Below, one piece after another: positions 8,921 through 53,445 of a stretch of DNA of 53,495 nt (its first letter is position 1; each line of letters starts with the position of its first letter). A program made the translations under genes and the position numbers. Origin of the DNA: Nitrososphaerota archaeon (GTDB taxonomy: Archaea > Thermoproteota > Nitrososphaeria > Nitrososphaerales > Nitrosopumilaceae); contig JAGWGA010000010.1 of NCBI GenBank assembly GCA_028867675.1, positions 1-53,495 of the forward strand, in the 5' to 3' direction. A model generated the notes under the pieces. It had not been told where the DNA came from. It ran no database searches and saw only the letters and a program-made list of their open reading frames with translations.

Positions 8921-9469
8921 TTGAAAATAGCTCTTGATGTAGATGGAGTTCTTGCTGATGTAATAGAATCTTGGTTATCCTATAATAATAAAATAAGACC
9001 AACTATATCTAAATCACAGATATCTGAATGGGATTTTTGGAAAAATCATGATATAAACAAATTTGATTTTTATAATGAACTTTCAATTTGTTGGAGATCA
9101 TGGAAAGATATTCCTCCAACTGAAAATGATATTGCATCTGCTACGGTACAGTTATCAAATATGGGTACTGTCGATATAGTTACTGCAAGAGATGAATCTA
9201 CTCATAATGATGTTAAAAACTGGTTAAAACTCCATAAAATTAATTTCAAAAATTATGTTGGTGTTGTAGAAGGAGTTGAAAAATCAAAACTTGATTATGA
9301 CGTCTTTATTGACGATTCGCCTCTTAATGCAAAAAACATGCTTGAAAAAGGAAAATCTGTAATACTCTACTCCCAGCCTTGGAATTTGTCTTTTGAAGAT
9401 AAAAGGGCAACAAGAATTCATGAACTAAAAAATGCTGTACCTGTAATTGATAATATAATTAATCAGTAA
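8921..9469 (+). CDS. HAD-superfamily 5'-nucleotidase-like protein (NT5C/5'(3')-deoxyribonucleotidase type)
   Basis: The 182-residue protein starts ALDVDGVLADV, with the two HAD motif-I aspartates D6 and D8. It continues with the motif-II region VTARDE and ends with the motif-IV FIDDSPLNAKNM. Small cap and length match the NT5C group, which dephosphorylates (deoxy)nucleoside monophosphates; the substrate here is unknown. Start is TTG at 8921, two bases after the dnaJ stop codon, so it is co-transcribed with the chaperone genes. No functional link to protein folding is obvious. Confidence 0.75.
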   Translation: MKIALDVDGVLADVIESWLSYNNKIRPTISKSQISEWDFWKNHDINKFDFYNELSICWRSWKDIPPTENDIASATVQLSNMGTVDIVTARDESTHNDVKNWLKLHKINFKNYVGVVEGVEKSKLDYDVFIDDSPLNAKNMLEKGKSVILYSQPWNLSFEDKRATRIHELKNAVPVIDNIINQ

Positions 9470-9556
9470 ATAATTTTGAAATCTAGATAATTTTTTATTC
9501 TGATTTTTGTCTTGTAATAAAGACACTTATTGTAGGATTCTAAATCTCACGTTGTT

Positions 9557-9641
9557 GCGGGGGTCGCCTAGCCTGGTCAACGGCGTAAGGCTCAGAACCT
9601 TATCTTTTAGGAGTTCGTGGGTTCAAATCCCACCTCCCGCA
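9557..9641 (+). tRNA. tRNA-Leu (anticodon CAG)
   Basis: This is a class II tRNA of 85 bases. The acceptor stem GCGGGGG pairs with CTCCCGC, with discriminator A at 9641. The anticodon stem TAAGG/CCTTA is perfect and encloses loop CTCAGAA, giving anticodon CAG. A long variable arm (TCTTTTAGGAGTTC) follows, then the T arm GTGGG-TTCAAAT-CCCAC. The bases after the discriminator are CC but not CCA, so the CCA end is not fully encoded. No intron is seen. Confidence 0.93.
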
Positions 9642-9649
9642 CCTCTTCG

Positions 9650-9658
9650 TTTTTGTTT
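9650..9658 (+). terminator. T-rich terminator after tRNA-Leu
   Basis: TTTTTGTTT begins nine bases after the tRNA and overlaps the gatE stop codon on the other strand. Archaeal RNA polymerase stops at such T tracts without needing a hairpin. Confidence 0.4.
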
Positions 9659-11564
9659 ACTTGGGATCTATCTTGTTCTTGATTTTATTTTCTAAAAGTT
9701 GATTTAATTTCTGACCATCTACTTTACCCCGTAATGTTTTCATGGCTAATCCCATAAGAGGACCCATTGATCTTAGACCTTGTTCTTGGATAATCTTAAG
9801 GTTGGATTCTATCAATTTGTCTAATATTTGATGCAATTCCGTATCTTGTATGGTATTCAATGCATTAGATTGTATGGCATCTGAAATTGTTTTTGCCTTT
9901 CCACTCATGATACTTTCAAATATCATTTCAAGTGATTCTTTTGCTATCTTTTCATCTACTATTAACCTAAAAGCTTCCAAAATATCTGAGGTTTTTAATA
10001 ATTCTGAATTCATACCGCGTCGTTCCAAATTTGTAATAGTTCCACAAAGAATTGAGGCAACAAAATTTGGAGGGACTCTCTTATCCTTGCATATTGTTTC
10101 AAACAGATCTAAATATTCTGAATCAAATACCTGAGCCGAAAGCTGCTGATTTAATTCGTATTGTTTTTGCAATGCTAAAAGATTCTCCTCCCATGATTTT
10201 GGAATCTTATTTCTTGCTTCCTCTATCTCTGTATTATTTACTATAATTGGTGGAATGTCAGTCTCTGGATACATTCTTGAAGAACCTGGTCTTGGTCGTA
10301 GGAACACTGTCTCACCTGTAATTGTGGCAACTCTTGTCTCTGCAGGTATTCCACTTTTTGCATCCTCAATTCTCTTAATGAGGGATTCAATCACAATGTC
10401 TAATTTTCTTTGATTTCCAGCCAAGATGATAAAAGCATCATTAGAACCTGCATCAAGTAACTTCCTTACCTCTTTAATCTCTGATTCTTCAATTCCGTAG
10501 TTTGGTAGTTCATCAGAATGAAATATTCCACCTAATCCAAAGAATCTTACCAGCTCACCTAATTGTTTTCCTAATCTTATTCCTGGATATGGTTCCCATC
10601 CAAACATTCCTGAAAACCCTTTGATTTTCATTGCTTTCATTGATGATCCTTCTGTAAGGGATTTCTGAACAACTTTTGATTTACAATTCTTGAATATACC
10701 AGATACGTCTTTTACATCTTGATCTTTTACTATTTTTTCTGTTTTTAATGTCCTTAATTTCTCTGCAATAATTTTAAGACCATGTTGCCTTTTAGCCTCG
10801 TATTCGATTACTTTTTCTAACTGATCTAGTTTCTGAACTCCTTTTACTTCTATCACTGCTCCGCCCCCTTCTATTGATACATTAACATCCTGTCTGATTG
10901 AACCAAGACCTCTTCCCACTCTTTTTGTTGCACGCAACATTCGACCCAGAGTTAATGCAATATTCTTTATTTCTTCAGGAGTACCAGAAACTGGATCTAG
11001 AGCTATTTCTATTAGTGGTATACCAAGTCTGTCTAAACTATACTCTCTTGTATTTCCTGAATCTTTGAGTAGCTTTGCAGCATCTTCTTCAAGGCAAATA
11101 CTTTGAACACCTATACTCTTACCGTTTACCTCAAGACTTCCACCTGAAGACACCAACATTGTTCTTTGAAAACCTGATGTGTTGGAGCCGTCAATTACAA
11201 GCTTTCTCATTACATAGATCTCATTGAAAATATTTGATTTCAATGCAGAAGATAGAATCAAGACGGTTTCTTTTGCAAGGGGATCTACATCATGTGGTGG
11301 TTCATCATCTTGCTCTACAAGACAACTACTTTCTGGGTTGCTAAAATATGAAATCGTTTTTTCCTTACTTTTCTCAAAAAGAGCACTAGGATCAAACTCT
11401 CCCAACTCGCTACTTGTAATTCTTAATTTGCGTGTAAAATTAATCGAATATTCGTCTGATTCAATAGGCTTACAATTACAAAATAACTTGCGACCTGTTG
11501 CAAGCTGTTGATGTATTTCTAGTCCTACAAGAAGTCCTATTTTATCAATTTGAATTTCAGACAT
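9657..11564 (-). CDS. gatE: Glutamyl-tRNA(Gln) amidotransferase subunit E
   Basis: GatE activates and transamidates Glu-tRNA(Gln) to Gln-tRNA(Gln) with ammonia supplied by GatD, the archaea-specific route. The 635-residue protein begins GLLVGLEIHQQLATGRKLFCNC, the GatB/GatE signature. It carries the family motifs CLEEDAAK, RLGIPLIEIALDP, the insert typical of GatE near residues 270-400, and a C-terminal YqeY-like tail domain that binds the tRNA elbow. The start is ATG at 11564. It lies 32 bases downstream of gatD in the same direction, forming a gatD-gatE operon. Confidence 0.95.
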   Translation of the reverse strand: MSEIQIDKIGLLVGLEIHQQLATGRKLFCNCKPIESDEYSINFTRKLRITSSELGEFDPSALFEKSKEKTISYFSNPESSCLVEQDDEPPHDVDPLAKETVLILSSALKSNIFNEIYVMRKLVIDGSNTSGFQRTMLVSSGGSLEVNGKSIGVQSICLEEDAAKLLKDSGNTREYSLDRLGIPLIEIALDPVSGTPEEIKNIALTLGRMLRATKRVGRGLGSIRQDVNVSIEGGGAVIEVKGVQKLDQLEKVIEYEAKRQHGLKIIAEKLRTLKTEKIVKDQDVKDVSGIFKNCKSKVVQKSLTEGSSMKAMKIKGFSGMFGWEPYPGIRLGKQLGELVRFFGLGGIFHSDELPNYGIEESEIKEVRKLLDAGSNDAFIILAGNQRKLDIVIESLIKRIEDAKSGIPAETRVATITGETVFLRPRPGSSRMYPETDIPPIIVNNTEIEEARNKIPKSWEENLLALQKQYELNQQLSAQVFDSEYLDLFETICKDKRVPPNFVASILCGTITNLERRGMNSELLKTSDILEAFRLIVDEKIAKESLEMIFESIMSGKAKTISDAIQSNALNTIQDTELHQILDKLIESNLKIIQEQGLRSMGPLMGLAMKTLRGKVDGQKLNQLLENKIKNKIDPK

Positions 11565-47057: not shown

Positions 47058-47993
47058 ATGAAAATTATGATTACTGGTGGTTCTGGCTTTATTGGAAGCC
47101 ATCTATGTGATGAATTTCTTAAAGATAATCATGAAGTAATAGTCTTGACAAAAACCAATTCCTCACTACATAATTTGTCTCATATATCAAAACAAATACT
47201 AATTGAAAGAATTGATGTTACAGACTTTGATAAACTGGGAAAAAGCATCGAAAAAAACATGCCTGATGTATTAATTCATCTAGCAGGTGAAACATCACAT
47301 TCAAAATCATTTGAAAATCCGCTATATGACGTTGATGTAAATGCCAAATCAACATTATTTCTACTTGAAAAAATACGACAGATATGCCCAAAATGTAAAT
47401 TTATTCTAGGAAGTACCTTTATTGTAATAGGAAAACCCGAAACATTACCAGTAACAGAAGATACTCCCTGTAATCCTACTACCATCTACGGTACAAACAG
47501 ATTGGCAAGTGAACATTATTGTAAAATATATCATAATGTGTATGGTTTGAATACTCTTGTCTTTAGAATTACAAATTCATATGGTCCAAGAGAGCAGGTT
47601 ATCCCCACTAAAAATGCAGTGAATTTTTTGATTTACAAAGCTTTCAAAAATGAAGATATATCAATTTACAATAAAGGTGAATTCTTCCGTGATATTGTCT
47701 ACATATCAGATGTTGTATCTGGAATAAAGACAATCATGCTAAAGGGTAAACCTGGAAATTTGTATTGGATATCATCTGCAAAGAAAACATGGTTTTATGA
47801 GTTAGGCAAATGGCTAAACGAACTCACAAAAGCAGAGGTAAAGTATGTGGAAAGTCCACAGTATACAAAAAAAGTTGATGTTGGTAATTTTGTAGTGGAT
47901 AACTCTAAACTAAGGTCGTTAGGATGGGAAGCCAAAGTATCTGTAAAAGATGGAATTCAAAAAACTCTGGAATTTTTTAAATCACTGAATTAA
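47058..47993 (+). CDS. NAD-dependent epimerase/dehydratase (extended SDR) with Lys-to-Arg change in the active-site motif
   Basis: The 311-residue protein has the cofactor loop GGSGFIGSHL at 7-16, LAGETSHSKS, GSTFIVIGKPETLPVTEDTP and a complete C-terminal domain (FRDIVYISDVVSGI). The YxxxK motif reads Y144-G-T-N-R148, so arginine replaces the usual lysine. This may alter or remove activity, or mark a subfamily with a different mechanism. The substrate is presumably a nucleotide sugar. The start is ATG 47058, with ACTTTTAATTA about 25-33 bases upstream as a possible TATA box. Confidence 0.8.
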   Translation: MKIMITGGSGFIGSHLCDEFLKDNHEVIVLTKTNSSLHNLSHISKQILIERIDVTDFDKLGKSIEKNMPDVLIHLAGETSHSKSFENPLYDVDVNAKSTLFLLEKIRQICPKCKFILGSTFIVIGKPETLPVTEDTPCNPTTIYGTNRLASEHYCKIYHNVYGLNTLVFRITNSYGPREQVIPTKNAVNFLIYKAFKNEDISIYNKGEFFRDIVYISDVVSGIKTIMLKGKPGNLYWISSAKKTWFYELGKWLNELTKAEVKYVESPQYTKKVDVGNFVVDNSKLRSLGWEAKVSVKDGIQKTLEFFKSLN

Positions 47994-48022: not shown

Positions 48023-48859
48023 CTACACTAAACCTTGAGAGATAAAACGGCTAAACGAAGTAAATTTGAATTTTTTAATTATTCTATCTAATCGTTTTAA
48101 TGTATTTCCAAGATTATAGTAGGTTACAAAATTTTCAAGAAAAGATAATGGTACCTTAGGCATAAATTCTGGCGTTAGCTCCCATGAATGAATGTAGAAT
48201 GTAGCAGGAAAGTTATTGGAATTGATGTTCTTAATTGCATTTTCAATTACTCTTAGAGGTAATAATCTTAGATAAAATCCTCCACAGGCAGGAATAGTTC
48301 TTCCAAAGATTTTGGTTGTCAAAAGAGGAAATTCTAATAATTTTCCTTCAGAATTGTTTTTTTCTATGTTTTTACTATTGATTCTATATGGAACAGTCGG
48401 TGCGTTAGGGAGTCCGTATAATCTTGTCTTTGCTGGAACAATACTGCTGTCGTATTGATAACCTGCATCTTCAAGTGCATCGATTGCCCAGGCGCTTGTT
48501 TGATTCAAAGAAAAAGTTGGAGCCCTAAAACCCTTTGATTTCTTAGATGTCAAAATATCAAATTTTTTAATCTCATCAGAAAATTTCTCTTTAAAGTTTG
48601 GTGAATCGAGTCTTGTATGATACATTGTGTGAAATCCGATCTCATGGCCTCCAGCTAAAATCTTGTCTAACAGATCTGGCTTTGATTCTAATAATTCTCC
48701 AACCATAAAAAAAGTTGCGTACGTTTCATTTTTTCTTAACCATTCTAATATCTTGTCAATACCATTAACAACAGTTGGTTTGTTATCTTTTGTTGTAAGA
48801 TGTCGTTGAATAAATTCAGGATGATACCAATCTTCAAAATCTATTCCTAGTAGATTCAA
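48023..48859 (-). CDS. Polysaccharide deacetylase (NodB domain, XrtA/DUF3473-associated type)
   Basis: The 278-residue protein starts LLGIDFEDWYHPE, the start typical of exosortase-linked polysaccharide deacetylases. Metal ligands are visible: the aspartates of DFED at 7-10 and H77/H81 in HEIGFHTMYH. GFRAPTFSLNQTSAWAIDALEDAGYQYDSS follows in two conserved blocks, and the C-terminal FPATFYIHSWELTPE is the expected last motif. It removes N-acetyl groups from sugar residues. There is no signal peptide, so it may act in the cytoplasm on lipid-linked intermediates. The start is TTG 48859. Confidence 0.82.
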   Translation of the reverse strand: MNLLGIDFEDWYHPEFIQRHLTTKDNKPTVVNGIDKILEWLRKNETYATFFMVGELLESKPDLLDKILAGGHEIGFHTMYHTRLDSPNFKEKFSDEIKKFDILTSKKSKGFRAPTFSLNQTSAWAIDALEDAGYQYDSSIVPAKTRLYGLPNAPTVPYRINSKNIEKNNSEGKLLEFPLLTTKIFGRTIPACGGFYLRLLPLRVIENAIKNINSNNFPATFYIHSWELTPEFMPKVPLSFLENFVTYYNLGNTLKRLDRIIKKFKFTSFSRFISQGLV

Positions 48860-48926: not shown

Positions 48927-49463
48927 TTAATGTTCTATTTTTTTTATGACACGAGCTGGATTACCCATTACTACACAATAATCCGGTATGTCTTCAAAAA
49001 CAACACTGCCTGCTCCGACAATGGAATTTTCACCAATTGTGACTCCCGCAGTTATTATTGAACCTGGAAATAAAACTGCTCCAGATTTTATTGTGACCTG
49101 CTCTACCTTGCGAGGATAGATTCCTTTCTTTAAAAATAGATTAGCTGTAGGATTGGCATGTGCAAAGATTAAGGCATTTGAACCAATTGTAACATTGTTT
49201 TCTATCTTAACTAAACTGGGATAAACTAAATCAATCATAACATAAGGGGAAATATGGCAATTCTTGCCAATTTTTACTCCTCTTGCCTTCTGCATTTTGA
49301 TTGCAAATCCTGAGCTTGGACAAGAATATGCTAGAGAATGCAGTATCCATGTCCTTAAGAACTTCAGTTTTAATATGAAATGACCGCATGAACCCTTGTA
49401 GCCATAAAATTCCATTATCTCATTTTCATTTAGAGTAGAAGTATCCTCCACAATATCTGTCAT
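48927..49463 (-). CDS. Hexapeptide-repeat acyltransferase (WbbJ/maa-like)
   Basis: The 178-residue protein has an N-terminal part containing HSLAYSCPSSGFAIKMQKARG, then left-handed beta-helix repeats (VKIGKNCHISPYVMIDLV, IENNVTIGSNALIFAHA, TIKSGAVLFPGSIITAGVTIGENSIVGAGSVV in parts) and the end PDYCVVMGNPARVIKKI. Such enzymes O- or N-acylate sugars from acyl-CoA or acyl-ACP. The start is ATG 49463. It is divergent from the FkbH-ACP operon with 103 bases between them, making it one of two candidate users of the ACP-bound group. Confidence 0.83.
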   Translation of the reverse strand: MTDIVEDTSTLNENEIMEFYGYKGSCGHFILKLKFLRTWILHSLAYSCPSSGFAIKMQKARGVKIGKNCHISPYVMIDLVYPSLVKIENNVTIGSNALIFAHANPTANLFLKKGIYPRKVEQVTIKSGAVLFPGSIITAGVTIGENSIVGAGSVVFEDIPDYCVVMGNPARVIKKIEH

Positions 49464-49566: not shown

Positions 49567-51321
49567 ATGCCTATGGAGCCAAAATTATCTCATTATATTA
49601 ATGCTGCAAGTACTCTGGACACTAGTAACCTTGAGAAAAAAATACGCATTGGGATACTTGGAAGCTTTACATTAAATGGTCTTGAAGAGATATTACAAGT
49701 AAAATGCGCTGAGAAAAAAATAAGTGCTTCCATTTTTGTTTCAGGGTATAATCAATATAATCAAGATATTCTAAATGACAAAAGTAATCTCTACGATTTT
49801 TCACCAGACATCACCTTTCTAATACTGGATACAAGAAGTATCCTTGGAAATTTTTTTTATACTGTTTACTCATTATCTGTAGATCAAAGAAAAGAGTTGA
49901 TTGAGAAAAAGTCTGAGGAAATTATAAATCTATTACAAATTTTTACAAAAAAATCAAAATCAAAACTAGTTGTAACAAACTTGAGTATACCAACTTACTC
50001 TCCATATGGAATATGTGAGACAAAAGCAGAATTTGGTTTGGTGGAAATGGTAATTAATCTTAATTCAAAATTGGTTAATTATGCCAAAGATAATCCGTCT
50101 GTATACGTGTATGATTTCAATGGATTTGTCACACGTTTTGGGGAATCAAATATTTTTGATTTTCGTCAATTCTTCTTTGGAGATATTAAAATCAATTTAG
50201 AATTCCTACCTACATTTGCGGAGGACTTGATGGGATATGTAAAAGCGATGATGGGAATAAACAAAAAATGCATTGTACTTGATCTTGATAATACTCTTTG
50301 GGGAGGTATAGTAGGTGAAGATGGGTTTAATGGAATAAAATTAGGTCCTACTGCTCCAGGTAATGCCTATGTCGAGTTTCAGCGTTCTATACTCGCACTA
50401 AATCAGAGGGGAATTATTTTGGCCATAAATAGTAAAAATAATGAGGATGAGGCGCTTGAAGTATTACGAAATCATCCTCACATGATCCTACGTGAAGAAA
50501 ACTTTGCAAGTATTAGAATAAACTGGAATGATAAAGTATCTAATATGAAAGAAATTGCAGAGGAATTGAATATTGGACTAGATAGTATGGCGTTCTTTGA
50601 TGATGATCCGGTAAACAGAGAATACATGACTTTGAATTTACCGGAGGTTCTAACGGTAAACCTACCATCTGACCCTGCTCTGTACGCTTCAACTTTATAC
50701 TACATTAGCGATTTTAACGTGCTCAAGATAACTGATGAGGACATAAAACGAAAAGATATGTATCTTCAAGAGAAAAAAAGGAAAGATTTTGAAAAAGATG
50801 CAACTAACCTTGAAGACTTTATAAAACAACTTGATGTAAAACTCAAGATAAAAAAGGCAGATCAGTTTACCATTCCAAGAATATCACAACTCACACTAAA
50901 GACAAACCAATTCAATTTAACAACTAAAAGATATCAAGAAGAAGAGATAAGACAATTTTCCCAAGATGGGAATATGTTGGTAGGATGTGCTCAAGTTGAG
51001 GACAAGTTTGGTGATAATGGTATAACTGGTGTATTTATTGTAAAAAAAGAGAATACCAAAGAGTGGATGATTGATACTTTTCTTCTAAGCTGTAGAGTAA
51101 TGGGACGAGAAATTGAAAAGGGAATATTATCTCATATAATAAACAAGGCTAGTGAAAATAAAATTGAACGTCTAAAAGCACAATTTGTTCCAACCAAGAA
51201 AAATAAACCTGTAGAAAATTTTCTACCTGACTGTGGATTTCATAAGGAAGGTGATTATTGGGTTTATCCAATAAATTCTTCATTTAAGGTTCCAGATTAC
51301 CTAGGAATTAGTGTGGAATAA
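49567..51321 (+). CDS. fkbH: FkbH-like HAD-superfamily protein (subfamily IIIC) with C-terminal GNAT domain
   Basis: FkbH proteins take 1,3-bisphosphoglycerate, remove phosphate and load a glyceryl unit on an acyl carrier protein; relatives in sugar clusters may load other hydroxyacids. The 584-residue protein has an N-terminal SGNH-like half (about 1-225), the HAD domain with the nucleophile D239 in VLDLDNTLWGGIVGEDG, NSKNNEDEA and FFDDDPVNRE, and a C-terminal GNAT-like domain (CAQVEDKFGDNGITGVF; SCRVMGREIEKGIL). Length is typical. The start is ATG 49567 (ATG 49573 possible). Its stop codon overlaps the ACP start by one base, strongly implying joint function. Confidence 0.88.
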   Translation: MPMEPKLSHYINAASTLDTSNLEKKIRIGILGSFTLNGLEEILQVKCAEKKISASIFVSGYNQYNQDILNDKSNLYDFSPDITFLILDTRSILGNFFYTVYSLSVDQRKELIEKKSEEIINLLQIFTKKSKSKLVVTNLSIPTYSPYGICETKAEFGLVEMVINLNSKLVNYAKDNPSVYVYDFNGFVTRFGESNIFDFRQFFFGDIKINLEFLPTFAEDLMGYVKAMMGINKKCIVLDLDNTLWGGIVGEDGFNGIKLGPTAPGNAYVEFQRSILALNQRGIILAINSKNNEDEALEVLRNHPHMILREENFASIRINWNDKVSNMKEIAEELNIGLDSMAFFDDDPVNREYMTLNLPEVLTVNLPSDPALYASTLYYISDFNVLKITDEDIKRKDMYLQEKKRKDFEKDATNLEDFIKQLDVKLKIKKADQFTIPRISQLTLKTNQFNLTTKRYQEEEIRQFSQDGNMLVGCAQVEDKFGDNGITGVFIVKKENTKEWMIDTFLLSCRVMGREIEKGILSHIINKASENKIERLKAQFVPTKKNKPVENFLPDCGFHKEGDYWVYPINSSFKVPDYLGISVE

Positions 51322-51560
51322 TGTCCAAAAGACTCTATGATCTCATTGGTAAGGTAATGAATGTGCCAGTATCTCAAATTAATGATAATTCTGGTCCTGA
51401 ATCAATTGAGAGCTGGACATCATTCAATGGCTATGTTTTATTGTATGAACTGGAACATGAATTTAATGTAAAATTTACTATGGAGGAAGCCATTGATGTT
51501 AAGACAATCTCCGATATTAAACGGCATTTGCAAAATCATGGAGTAGTATTTAATGACTGA
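51321..51560 (+). CDS. Acyl carrier protein
   Basis: The 79-residue acidic protein has the four-helix ACP pattern: an N-terminal helix, then GPESIESWTSFNGYVLLYELEHEFNV in two parts, ISDIKRHL at the end. The phosphopantetheine serine is S34 in WTSFNG, where most ACPs of this FkbH-linked type have W-D-S-L. The start ATG 51321 overlaps the fkbH stop, and its end overlaps the MaoC gene by eight bases, so three genes are translationally coupled. A dedicated holo-ACP synthase is encoded 450 bases downstream. Its cargo is unknown; a glyceryl or short hydroxyacyl thioester is the best guess. Confidence 0.87.
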   Translation: MSKRLYDLIGKVMNVPVSQINDNSGPESIESWTSFNGYVLLYELEHEFNVKFTMEEAIDVKTISDIKRHLQNHGVVFND

Positions 51561-51978
51561 AATGTGTGAAGAACACAAATTAGAAGAAATTCAAATAGGA
51601 CAGAAAAAATTTTTTTCTGTTAAAATAACAGAATCATTAGTGAATGAATTTGCAAAGATCTCCGGTGATTTTAATCCATTGCACATGGATGAGCAATATG
51701 CAAAATCGACAAACTTTCAGAGACGAGTATGTCATGGTATGCTTTTGGCATCATTCTTTTCTAAAATGATTGGCATGTATCTGCCTGGAAAAAATGCTTT
51801 ATATTTTTCGCAGACTCTAAATTTCAGATTACCTTGTTTCATACAAGATAATGTGACTGTAGAGGGAGAAGTGCTTGAGAAGAGCCTGGCAAGTAGAATG
51901 CTTACTCTTAAAACCGTAATAAATAATGAAGACGGAAAATGTCTAGTAGACGGAATTGCCAAAGTTTTAGTAAGATAA
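51553..51978 (+). CDS. MaoC-like (R)-specific enoyl-thioester hydratase
   Basis: This hot-dog-fold enzyme adds or removes water at a 2-enoyl thioester. The 141-residue protein shows the complete (R)-hydratase signature in FAKISGDFNPLHMDEQYA, with catalytic D39 and H44, then CHGMLLASFFSKMIG and an overhang LNFRLPCFIQDNVTVEGEV typical of the family. Many relatives act on CoA esters in 3-hydroxybutyrate/crotonyl metabolism; here the coupling to the ACP gene argues for an acyl-ACP substrate. The start is ATG 51553 (ATG 51562 possible). Confidence 0.87.
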   Translation: MTEMCEEHKLEEIQIGQKKFFSVKITESLVNEFAKISGDFNPLHMDEQYAKSTNFQRRVCHGMLLASFFSKMIGMYLPGKNALYFSQTLNFRLPCFIQDNVTVEGEVLEKSLASRMLTLKTVINNEDGKCLVDGIAKVLVR

Positions 51979-52010
51979 TAAATCATTATTTCAAAAATAG
52001 ATGAAAATTT

Positions 52011-52394
52011 ATGATTGAAAAGTTTGGTATTGGAATAGATATTGTTGATGTAGCATCATTTGAGAAGATTCCATATTCATCCAAACGAGGATTCTATGAA
52101 AAAATATTCTTGCCCTCAGAAATAAAATACTGTCTAAAATACAAAAATCCATATGAAAGATTTGCAGGAAAATTTGCAATAAAAGAAGCAGTAAAAAAAT
52201 CAATTAGTGAGAATGTATCCCCGCTTAAAATCTTGGTATCTCACTCAAACTCAAAACCAAAAGTTGATTTGATAGGAATGAAAAAAACGAATTACACCTT
52301 CATTGCTTCTATTAGTCATGACAAAAAACTTGCTGTTGGTGTAGTTTTAGCAGAAAAAATAAAAAGTAAAACTAAGACAAAATCGAATTCTTAG
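52011..52394 (+). CDS. acpS: AcpS-type 4'-phosphopantetheinyl transferase (holo-ACP synthase)
   Basis: This enzyme moves phosphopantetheine from CoA to the ACP serine. The 127-residue protein has both AcpS motifs: FGIGIDIVDVASFEK with the magnesium ligand D10, and ERFAGKFAIKEAVKKS with E59, plus the C-terminal FIASISHDKKLAVGVVL. Length is normal. The start is ATG 52011, 32 bases after the MaoC gene, so it is the last gene of the operon. Its presence shows that the ACP is meant to be functional. The 3' end overlaps the convergent glycosyltransferase gene by 23 bases. Confidence 0.87.
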   Translation: MIEKFGIGIDIVDVASFEKIPYSSKRGFYEKIFLPSEIKYCLKYKNPYERFAGKFAIKEAVKKSISENVSPLKILVSHSNSKPKVDLIGMKKTNYTFIASISHDKKLAVGVVLAEKIKSKTKTKSNS

Positions 52395-53445
52395 CTTTTC
52401 TGCTAAGGGAAGAAAGTATCTTGTTAAAAAAATTGTTTGTTGTACTACTAGAAACGTTAATGGGAACATAAATGTCATCAGGAAATGTTTTGATTAGTTC
52501 TATATCTGAAACGAGTTTCTTGTCTTCCAGCTCTTTGTATCTCTTAGATATCTGCTCTTTGTTTCTAAGAATATCAATCTCCGCCCTTATTTTTGATACT
52601 AAAAATCCTTTATAGATATAGAAAAACCAAACCAGAATATCTACAAGTATTAGTGAAGGAAGTATCTTGCGATATGTTTTCTTGGAATAATGAGTTAGTA
52701 TGCAATATCGTCTATTTCTTTCCAGCCAGAAGAATTTTTTTGCACTCCATTTGAGGATGTAGCTCTCAGCATGATAAATAACTGCAGATGGTACGAAATA
52801 CGATTTGATCCCTAGCTGTGAAGCTCGCCAACCAAGATCAAGATCATCATGATATAGAAAAAGAAATGGATCAAGAAAATCCAGACTTTTAAGAACAGAT
52901 GTAGAAGTAAACAGACATGTCCCAGAAGCATATCCAATTTGTTCAATTTCATTTCTCTGATTGTTATCTCTTAATCCCTTGTCTCTTGCAAATCCAAAAC
53001 CAAATAGATGAAGCATATTTCCTGTGCTTTGGAGGATTCCTTTTTCGTAAAGTGAGAGTATCTTTGGTTGGTAAAGTCCTATGCCTTTTTTTCTATATGC
53101 ATCAAGTAGACCAATTAACCAATTTGGTTCAACTATTGTATCCGGATTTAGTATAACTATGAATTCTCCGTTAGCATTTCTTATTCCTACATTATTTCCT
53201 TCACAATATCCCAAATTAGTTTCATTTCTAATTACGTGAATTTTATCAAATCTTTCTTTACATGTTACATGACTCTTATCTGATGAGGCATTATCTACTA
53301 CAATTATCTCAATATTCTTGTAATTACTCTTGAATACTGAATCAACACAATTTAACAATAATTCTCCTGCATTGTAATTAAGAATGACAATACTGACTAG
53401 AGGTTGATGTTCAGTAGACAATTCTATTCTAAAAACGTACCACAA
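52372..53445 (-). CDS. Family 2 glycosyltransferase (rhamnosyltransferase-like)
   Basis: The 357-residue protein has the GT-A pattern VSIVILNYNAGELLLNCVDSV, VVDNASSDKS, the metal-binding region ILNPDTIVEPNWL, and the acceptor part FLFLYHDDLDLGWRASQLG, as in WcaA/rhamnosyltransferase-like enzymes. A hydrophobic stretch near residue 270 (ILPSLILVDILVWFFYIY) may sit at the membrane. The listed start is TTG 53445; TTG 53421 is an alternative closer to the homologous core. It shows the glycan island continues to the right edge. Convergent with acpS. Confidence 0.84.
   Translation of the reverse strand: MWYVFRIELSTEHQPLVSIVILNYNAGELLLNCVDSVFKSNYKNIEIIVVDNASSDKSHVTCKERFDKIHVIRNETNLGYCEGNNVGIRNANGEFIVILNPDTIVEPNWLIGLLDAYRKKGIGLYQPKILSLYEKGILQSTGNMLHLFGFGFARDKGLRDNNQRNEIEQIGYASGTCLFTSTSVLKSLDFLDPFLFLYHDDLDLGWRASQLGIKSYFVPSAVIYHAESYILKWSAKKFFWLERNRRYCILTHYSKKTYRKILPSLILVDILVWFFYIYKGFLVSKIRAEIDILRNKEQISKRYKELEDKKLVSDIELIKTFPDDIYVPINVSSSTTNNFFNKILSSLSRKAKNSILS

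Follow-up and report, generated by a model that had tools for sequence, protein, structure and literature searches.

Most archaea lack acyl carrier protein (ACP) and the enzyme that activates it; where present, the two have been viewed as acquired sporadically from bacteria (PMC3533463). In the flagellin of the bacterium Campylobacter jejuni NCTC 11168, the 5-acetamido group of pseudaminic acid is exchanged for a 2,3-di-O-methylglyceroyl amide, and Cj1295, an amidase-like/aminopeptidase-like protein, was proposed by the authors to cleave the acetamido group first (PMC3068675). The Campylobacter flagellin glycosylation locus also contains an FkbH-domain gene, fkbH (cj1302) (PMC7099621), and FkbH makes glyceryl-ACP (PMC7489565, PMC8949500). 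In Pseudomonas syringae, mutants and mass spectrometry showed that a viosamine island controls N-acyl viosamine (PMC3927599). The literature searched contained no paper linking FkbH with archaeal glycans and nothing that directly ties FkbH to O-antigen. We describe here an FkbH-ACP-MaoC-AcpS cassette of a Nitrosopumilaceae archaeon, carried on a contig of 53,495 nt (G000:C11; genome 97.46% complete) that was analyzed whole and is referred to as the window. Our best explanation, with a probability of about 0.6, is a portable, self-sufficient ACP module for the re-acylation of a deacetylated surface-glycan sugar with a three-carbon (C3) acyl group.

Results

A private carrier protein and no synthase found

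The four cassette genes are spaced by -1, -8, and +32 bases in the order FkbH, ACP, MaoC, AcpS. The first-pass annotation of this DNA had reported that the four open reading frames overlap by 1 and 8 bases and leave a gap of 32 bases, and its positions were exact. In genome-wide profile searches, each of the four families was found in a single copy, always in the cassette. Across family f1, MaoC above the cut-off was confined to FkbH cassettes (13 genomes). The genome gave no match to malonyl transacylase (PF00698), and no condensing enzyme, including KASIII, was found genome-wide, as PF00109 and PF08545 matched only a thiolase on contig C145. A fatty-acid or polyketide synthase was rejected because these searches found neither a transacylase nor a condensing enzyme. 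The cassette genes thus belong to no complete synthase that the genome search could find, and the earlier proposal of a self-contained carrier with a purpose other than fatty-acid synthesis is upheld.

AcpS was located within six genes of FkbH at 33 of 39 archaeal and candidate phyla radiation (CPR) loci; in other bacteria this was so at 1 of 53 loci (counts uncorrected for kinship). The archaeal and CPR loci without a nearby AcpS are mostly on cut contigs. The simplest reading is that AcpS travels with the cassette because the host is without a fatty-acid synthase. Elsewhere in the phylum, PP-binding frames longer than 1000 amino acids (aa) were seen (G112:C3:100996-104400 and f18 genomes), suggesting nonribosomal peptide synthetase- or polyketide synthase-like proteins in some Nitrososphaerota.

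Conserved order and limits of the unit

In relatives, a deacetylase gene and a hexapeptide acyltransferase gene (Hex) are on one strand, FkbH-ACP-MaoC (or VOC)-AcpS is on the other, and a convergent GT2 glycosyltransferase gene follows. The cassette gene order is repeated in more than 12 other archaeal genomes, a recurrence that argues against chance, and the neighborhood search recovered the four-gene order in a patchy set of Nitrosopumilaceae. The conserved order makes Hex and the deacetylase parts of the unit, so the four-gene boundaries drawn at first were too narrow. Among 101 near relatives, an intact Hex orthologue was present in 5/5 FkbH-positive genomes and in 0/96 FkbH-negative genomes, which supports the suggestion that a nearby hexapeptide protein carries out the transfer.

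From about 24.8 kb onward, the window consists mostly of glycan genes, encoding glycosyltransferases, nucleotide-sugar dehydratases/epimerases and dehydrogenases, sugar aminotransferases, methyltransferases, and a weakly flippase-like protein. The G+C content of the cassette (29 to 36%) is close to that of this island (32%).

Natural substitutions

Four kinds of replacement were observed in relatives. In the third slot across FkbH loci, MaoC alone was found 23 times, a VOC protein alone 21 times, and both together 0 times, uncorrected for kinship. Within the Nitrosopumilaceae, the swap at this slot occurred two to three times in bootstrap trees, one of which is forced by well-supported branches. 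Because VOC occupies the slot in relatives, MaoC, previously taken as a fixed member, is an optional acyl-tailoring enzyme and not part of the core. A ketoreductase-type SDR accompanied MaoC in 5 of 6 cases and VOC in none. As possible cassette partners elsewhere in the genome under study, only generic SDRs were found (best E=1.4e-12). The metal-binding-type residues of VOC look kept, and K/S or A/S precedes QKV; the Glu that we take to be catalytic at this site in the methylmalonyl-CoA epimerase family appears to be replaced. A classical methylmalonyl-CoA epimerase is therefore not claimed.

The loader is also exchanged. In two genomes (G188 and G246), FkbH is replaced by an AMP-binding ligase, whereas Hex, ACP, AcpS, and GT2 are retained. 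At these loci, L132 (10270-12508) and L133 (10157-14949), the genes for ACP, the ligase, and Hex adjoin AcpS. SGNH-like and MBOAT genes come next in G246, a Dlt-like arrangement in an archaeon.

The whole cassette can be replaced as well. In a congener (G013) and in G041, a single GNAT acetyltransferase gene is located between the same deacetylase and GT2. GNAT is typically an N-acyltransferase family, and its presence in this slot suggests that the cassette stands in for an acyltransferase that works once the deacetylase has acted. The GT2 flank is kept beside both the GNAT variant (L150 and L151) and the AMP-ligase variant (L132 and L133), and the extended SDR gene that flanks the deacetylase has an orthologue at the matching place in L150 and L151.

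Finally, in several relatives an MBOAT gene, often with one for an SGNH-like protein, adjoins the loader genes. It adjoins AcpS-FkbH(-ACP)-MaoC in CPR bacteria, AcpS-FkbH in a Micrarchaeote, and FkbH-ACP-MaoC in Nitrosopelagicus (L086, L087, L120, and L060), where it may be an alternative transferase. Genome G330 has, beyond its FkbH cassette, a second locus with genes for an SGNH-like protein, ACP, SDR, and MBOAT (L134:8810-12532). No MBOAT was found in the genome under study, and this family was rejected as its transferase. Taken together, the third-slot, loader, slot, and transferase swaps suggest a scheme of loading, tailoring, and transfer.

Protein families and conserved residues

The features are listed in Table 1. 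FkbH scored 321.6 bits against TIGR01686 (cut-off, 146.65) and 58.5 bits against PF21211 (FkbH_N). D239, D241, K323, D345, D346, and C509 are invariant in an alignment of archaeal relatives. FkbH matched BF1531 of Bacteroides fragilis (PDB 3SLR) both in sequence (E=3.8e-55) and in fold, where the N-domain and HAD domain of the structure model (pLDDT 85) gave a TM of 0.91 by target. The GNAT part has no Pfam match; GNAT acetyltransferases are among the fold matches of the model, and these presumably cover the C-terminal part. The early description of an FkbH-like HAD/GNAT protein with D239 thus agrees with profile, alignment, and fold.

ACP matched PF00550 weakly but above the cut-off (23.2 versus 20.8 bits), and S34 is invariant in 17/17 archaeal cassettes. 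The residue before this serine is Thr (TSF, not the usual DSF) here and in several Nitrosopumilaceae relatives, a possible co-adaptation with the private AcpS. MaoC matched PF01575 (66.9 bits) and the structure 1IQ6 (E=4.7e-28), with D39/H44 invariant in 11/11 cassettes. AcpS matched PF01648 (41.3 bits) and the structure 5XUK, with D10/E59/K63 invariant in 15/15 cassettes. Against NCBIfam, AcpS scored 53.0 with TIGR00516, under the equivalog cut-off of 59.8, and 55.3 with TIGR00556, over the cut-off of 45.35. The families and active-site residues first named for these three proteins (S34, D39/H44, and D10/E59) were all confirmed.

The deacetylase matched TIGR03006 (199.6 bits), PF01522, PF11959, and CE4 structures; a signal peptide is not obvious. 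The structure model of Hex has a pLDDT of 93, and the N-acyltransferase AntD is among its fold matches, further down.

Table 1. Genes of the cassette and its conserved surroundings, with positions in the window
Feature	Coordinates	Strand	Length (aa)	Assignment	Residues or remarks
FkbH	49567..51321	+	584	SGNH-like N-domain, HAD-IIIC phosphatase, GNAT-fold acyltransferase	
ACP	51321..51560	+	79	Acyl carrier protein	Phosphopantetheine Ser34, motif W-T-S-F
MaoC	51553..51978	+	141	MaoC/PhaJ-type (R)-hydratase/dehydratase	D39/H44
AcpS	52011..52394	+	127	AcpS-type phosphopantetheinyl transferase	D10/E59/K63
Hex	48927..49463	-		LbH hexapeptide acyltransferase, PF00132	Invariant H102
Deacetylase	48023..48859	-		CE4/NodB-type, DUF3473, XrtA-type	D7/H77/H81 invariant
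GT2 glycosyltransferase	52372..53445	-		PF00535	Convergent to AcpS, 23-base overlap
Extended SDR	47058..47993	+		Nucleotide-sugar epimerase/dehydratase family, PF16363/PF01370	Conserved flank on deacetylase side

Distribution and history

FkbH above the cut-off was found in 5 of the 101 near relatives, in 17 of 398 genomes of the phylum, and in none of 36 sampled congeners. The genome's family-mates (f1) are Nitrosopumilaceae, among them Nitrosarchaeum and Ca. Nitrosotenuis. The strain Ca. Nitrosotenuis chungbukensis MY2 carries a cassette of the MaoC type (L052). Two genomes contain decaying cassettes, with stops or frame breaks in FkbH and shortened MaoC and AcpS (L050 and L051; G324 and G456). 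Patchy presence together with this decay is the pattern of an accessory module that is gained and lost. A Hex pseudogene with three stops (L152 near 9333-9773) was found in G067, which has no FkbH, and is possibly the remnant of a lost cassette. The assembly Nitrosopumilales AM_0615, which may be a mixed bin, carries a MaoC cassette and a second cassette whose VOC, at 67 aa, appears truncated (L054 and L056).

The core (AcpS, FkbH, ACP, Hex, and a NodB-type deacetylase) was also found in Heimdall-, Loki-, and Thorarchaeota and in the Nitrososphaerota family f27. These Asgard archaea and f27 have a second FkbH lineage in common, and their cassettes encode a related but different NodB-type protein. 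The FkbH tree groups 20 sequences of the Nitrosopumilaceae type in a single clade (support, 100). The clade is placed near sequences of DPANN and Nealsonbacteria, so exchange of FkbH among these groups is likely.

Discussion

Proposed function and alternatives

The cassette is very probably an ACP-dependent acylation module of the surface glycan. In the mechanism that we propose, AcpS would transfer phosphopantetheine to Ser34 of ACP. FkbH would act on a phosphorylated C3 acid (1,3-bisphosphoglycerate is the likeliest), dephosphorylating it and leaving a glyceryl thioester on ACP; both roles are those expected of the families. MaoC would tailor the thioester at C2-C3. With the beta-hydroxyl and the acidic alpha-proton of glyceryl-ACP at hand, MaoC could dehydrate it, and the simplest outcome would be the enol of pyruvyl-ACP. 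Where an SDR is present, it could reduce this enol-pyruvyl form to lactyl-ACP, and VOC in relatives would be an alternative enzyme at the same carbon in MaoC's stead. A bryostatin FkbH-DH-KR loading module is said to give lactyl and is offered as a lead only. On the glycan precursor, the CE4 deacetylase would remove an N-acetyl group from an amino sugar. This adjacent gene had been overlooked, and its product is likely a source of the free amine, which need not come only from an aminotransferase. Hex would then move the ACP-bound acyl group to the freed amine, as suggested by the order and co-occurrence of the genes and by the variant with a GNAT in the slot. The first-pass annotation had left the choice between a glyceryl and a 3-hydroxyacyl group. 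We favor the former, since no condensing enzyme was found, and set aside a 3-hydroxyacyl group of the viosamine type; the acyl group is probably glyceryl-derived. An amide linkage to a deacetylated sugar has about an even chance.

Several observations weigh against this mechanism. The deacetylase is missing at locus L045 and beside the AMP-ligase variants, and it is present without the cassette in G013 and G041. The nearest solved relatives of Hex, both in sequence and in fold, are CoA-dependent O-acetyltransferases (galactoside and maltose), so O- instead of N-acylation, or use of CoA, is possible. PhaJ, which MaoC resembles, is known to act on enoyl-CoAs rather than on glyceryl-ACP, and most MaoC cassettes are without an SDR. 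In addition, a draft genome that is 97% complete could miss a gene.

The same kinship of Hex bears on a different product, in which the ACP thioester is used to O-acylate a glycan or lipid hydroxyl and the deacetylase is an unrelated glycan-maturation gene. MBOAT/SGNH O-acyltransferase genes beside the same loaders in relatives, and the cassette-free deacetylase, are consistent with this. However, a GNAT takes the same slot beside that deacetylase, a NodB-type deacetylase (albeit a different protein) is retained in Asgard archaea and f27, and AntD is among the Hex fold matches, so we regard O-acylation as rather unlikely. The likeness of MaoC to PhaJ, an (R)-specific enoyl-CoA hydratase, raises another route. 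The autotrophic 3-hydroxypropionate/4-hydroxybutyrate cycle of these archaea has a crotonyl-CoA step, and MaoC could hydrate crotonyl-CoA to a 3-hydroxyacyl group, such as (R)-3-hydroxybutyryl, that passes to ACP and then to an amino sugar, with FkbH as a transacylase. A product of this kind has a counterpart in P. syringae, whose viosamine island makes an N-(3-hydroxybutanoyl) group with ACP, KASIII, a ketoreductase, and an LbH transferase (PMC3927599). Nevertheless, the HAD phosphatase residues of FkbH are intact although a CoA donor would not need them, and VOC replaces MaoC in relatives while the remainder of the cassette is kept. The genome-wide searches turned up neither KASIII nor any other condensing enzyme, on which ground a KASIII pathway of the viosamine type was rejected. 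We therefore doubt the crotonyl-CoA route.

Membership in a lipid, fatty-acid, or polyketide pathway is very improbable. ACP, AcpS, and MaoC are all families of fatty-acid synthesis, and bacterial FkbH feeds polyketide synthases (PMC7489565). On the other side are the genome-wide lack of matches to a transacylase or condensing enzyme, the single ACP of the genome, and the glycan island setting here and in relatives.

Re-acylation of a deacetylated glycan sugar with a C3 group, our preferred explanation, would give archaeal ACP and AcpS a concrete and likely non-lipid job, as a self-contained module of surface-glycan islands that brings its own AcpS into hosts (archaea and CPR) mostly without a fatty-acid synthase. 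It provides mass-spectrometric predictions for ammonia-oxidizing archaea in culture, along with a family of small natural systems that attach C3 acyl groups to sugars. More tentatively, archaea may harbor widespread, horizontally moving, modular carrier-protein cassettes for glycan acylation. Each would have its own AcpS, with exchangeable loaders (FkbH or AMP-ligase), transferases (LbH or MBOAT/SGNH), and tailoring enzymes, so that MaoC, MaoC plus SDR, or VOC could turn the same glyceryl thioester into different C3 acids, e.g., pyruvoyl or lactoyl. If this were true, closely related ammonia oxidizers would show chemically different surface acyl groups, possibly under virus or grazer selection.

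Comparison with known systems

Some of the parts have relatives in systems of other kinds. BF1531 shares the N-domain and HAD architecture common to FkbH; only its N-terminal part is solved in 3SLR, and the entry states no function. FkbH/ACP glycerate operons for tetronates and methoxymalonyl-ACP (FK520 and tetromadurin) differ in that the product enters a polyketide at non-glycan loci and tailoring is by dehydrogenase or FabH-like enzymes; a private AcpS is not reported for them in the literature searched.

The first-pass annotation pointed to bacterial FkbH/ACP sets in clusters that acylate amino sugars. Such a precedent exists in Campylobacter, whereas the documented 3-hydroxybutanoyl-viosamine island has KASIII and not FkbH (PMC3927599). 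The viosamine island is similar in having a dedicated ACP, a reductase, and an LbH acyltransferase within a glycan island (PMC3927599). It differs in that KASIII (vioS) builds the acyl group, which is reduced to 3-hydroxybutanoyl, and its seven-gene list is without FkbH, AcpS, and a deacetylase. Beside the archaeal ACP, the cassette contains neither KASIII nor a ketoreductase, and an SDR is found in some relatives only.

Among known systems, the Campylobacter modification that yields di-O-methylglyceroyl pseudaminic acid comes closest: a glyceroyl amide replaces the acetamido group on an amino sugar of a surface glycan, and the archaeal cassette is predicted to act alike. In the archaeal glycan locus, a deacylating enzyme accompanies FkbH and ACP, and this CE4 deacetylase is adjacent and conserved. 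However, Campylobacter is a bacterium with its own fatty-acid synthesis, its proposed deacylase is aminopeptidase-like and thus of a family other than CE4, and its glyceroyl group is methylated. The idea of deacetylating and then glyceroylating a sugar is already known in bacteria, and the carrier-protein logic is known from the viosamine island; the novelty here lies in an archaeal host, in an AcpS private to the cassette, in a deacetylase of the CE4 family, and in parts that can be exchanged.

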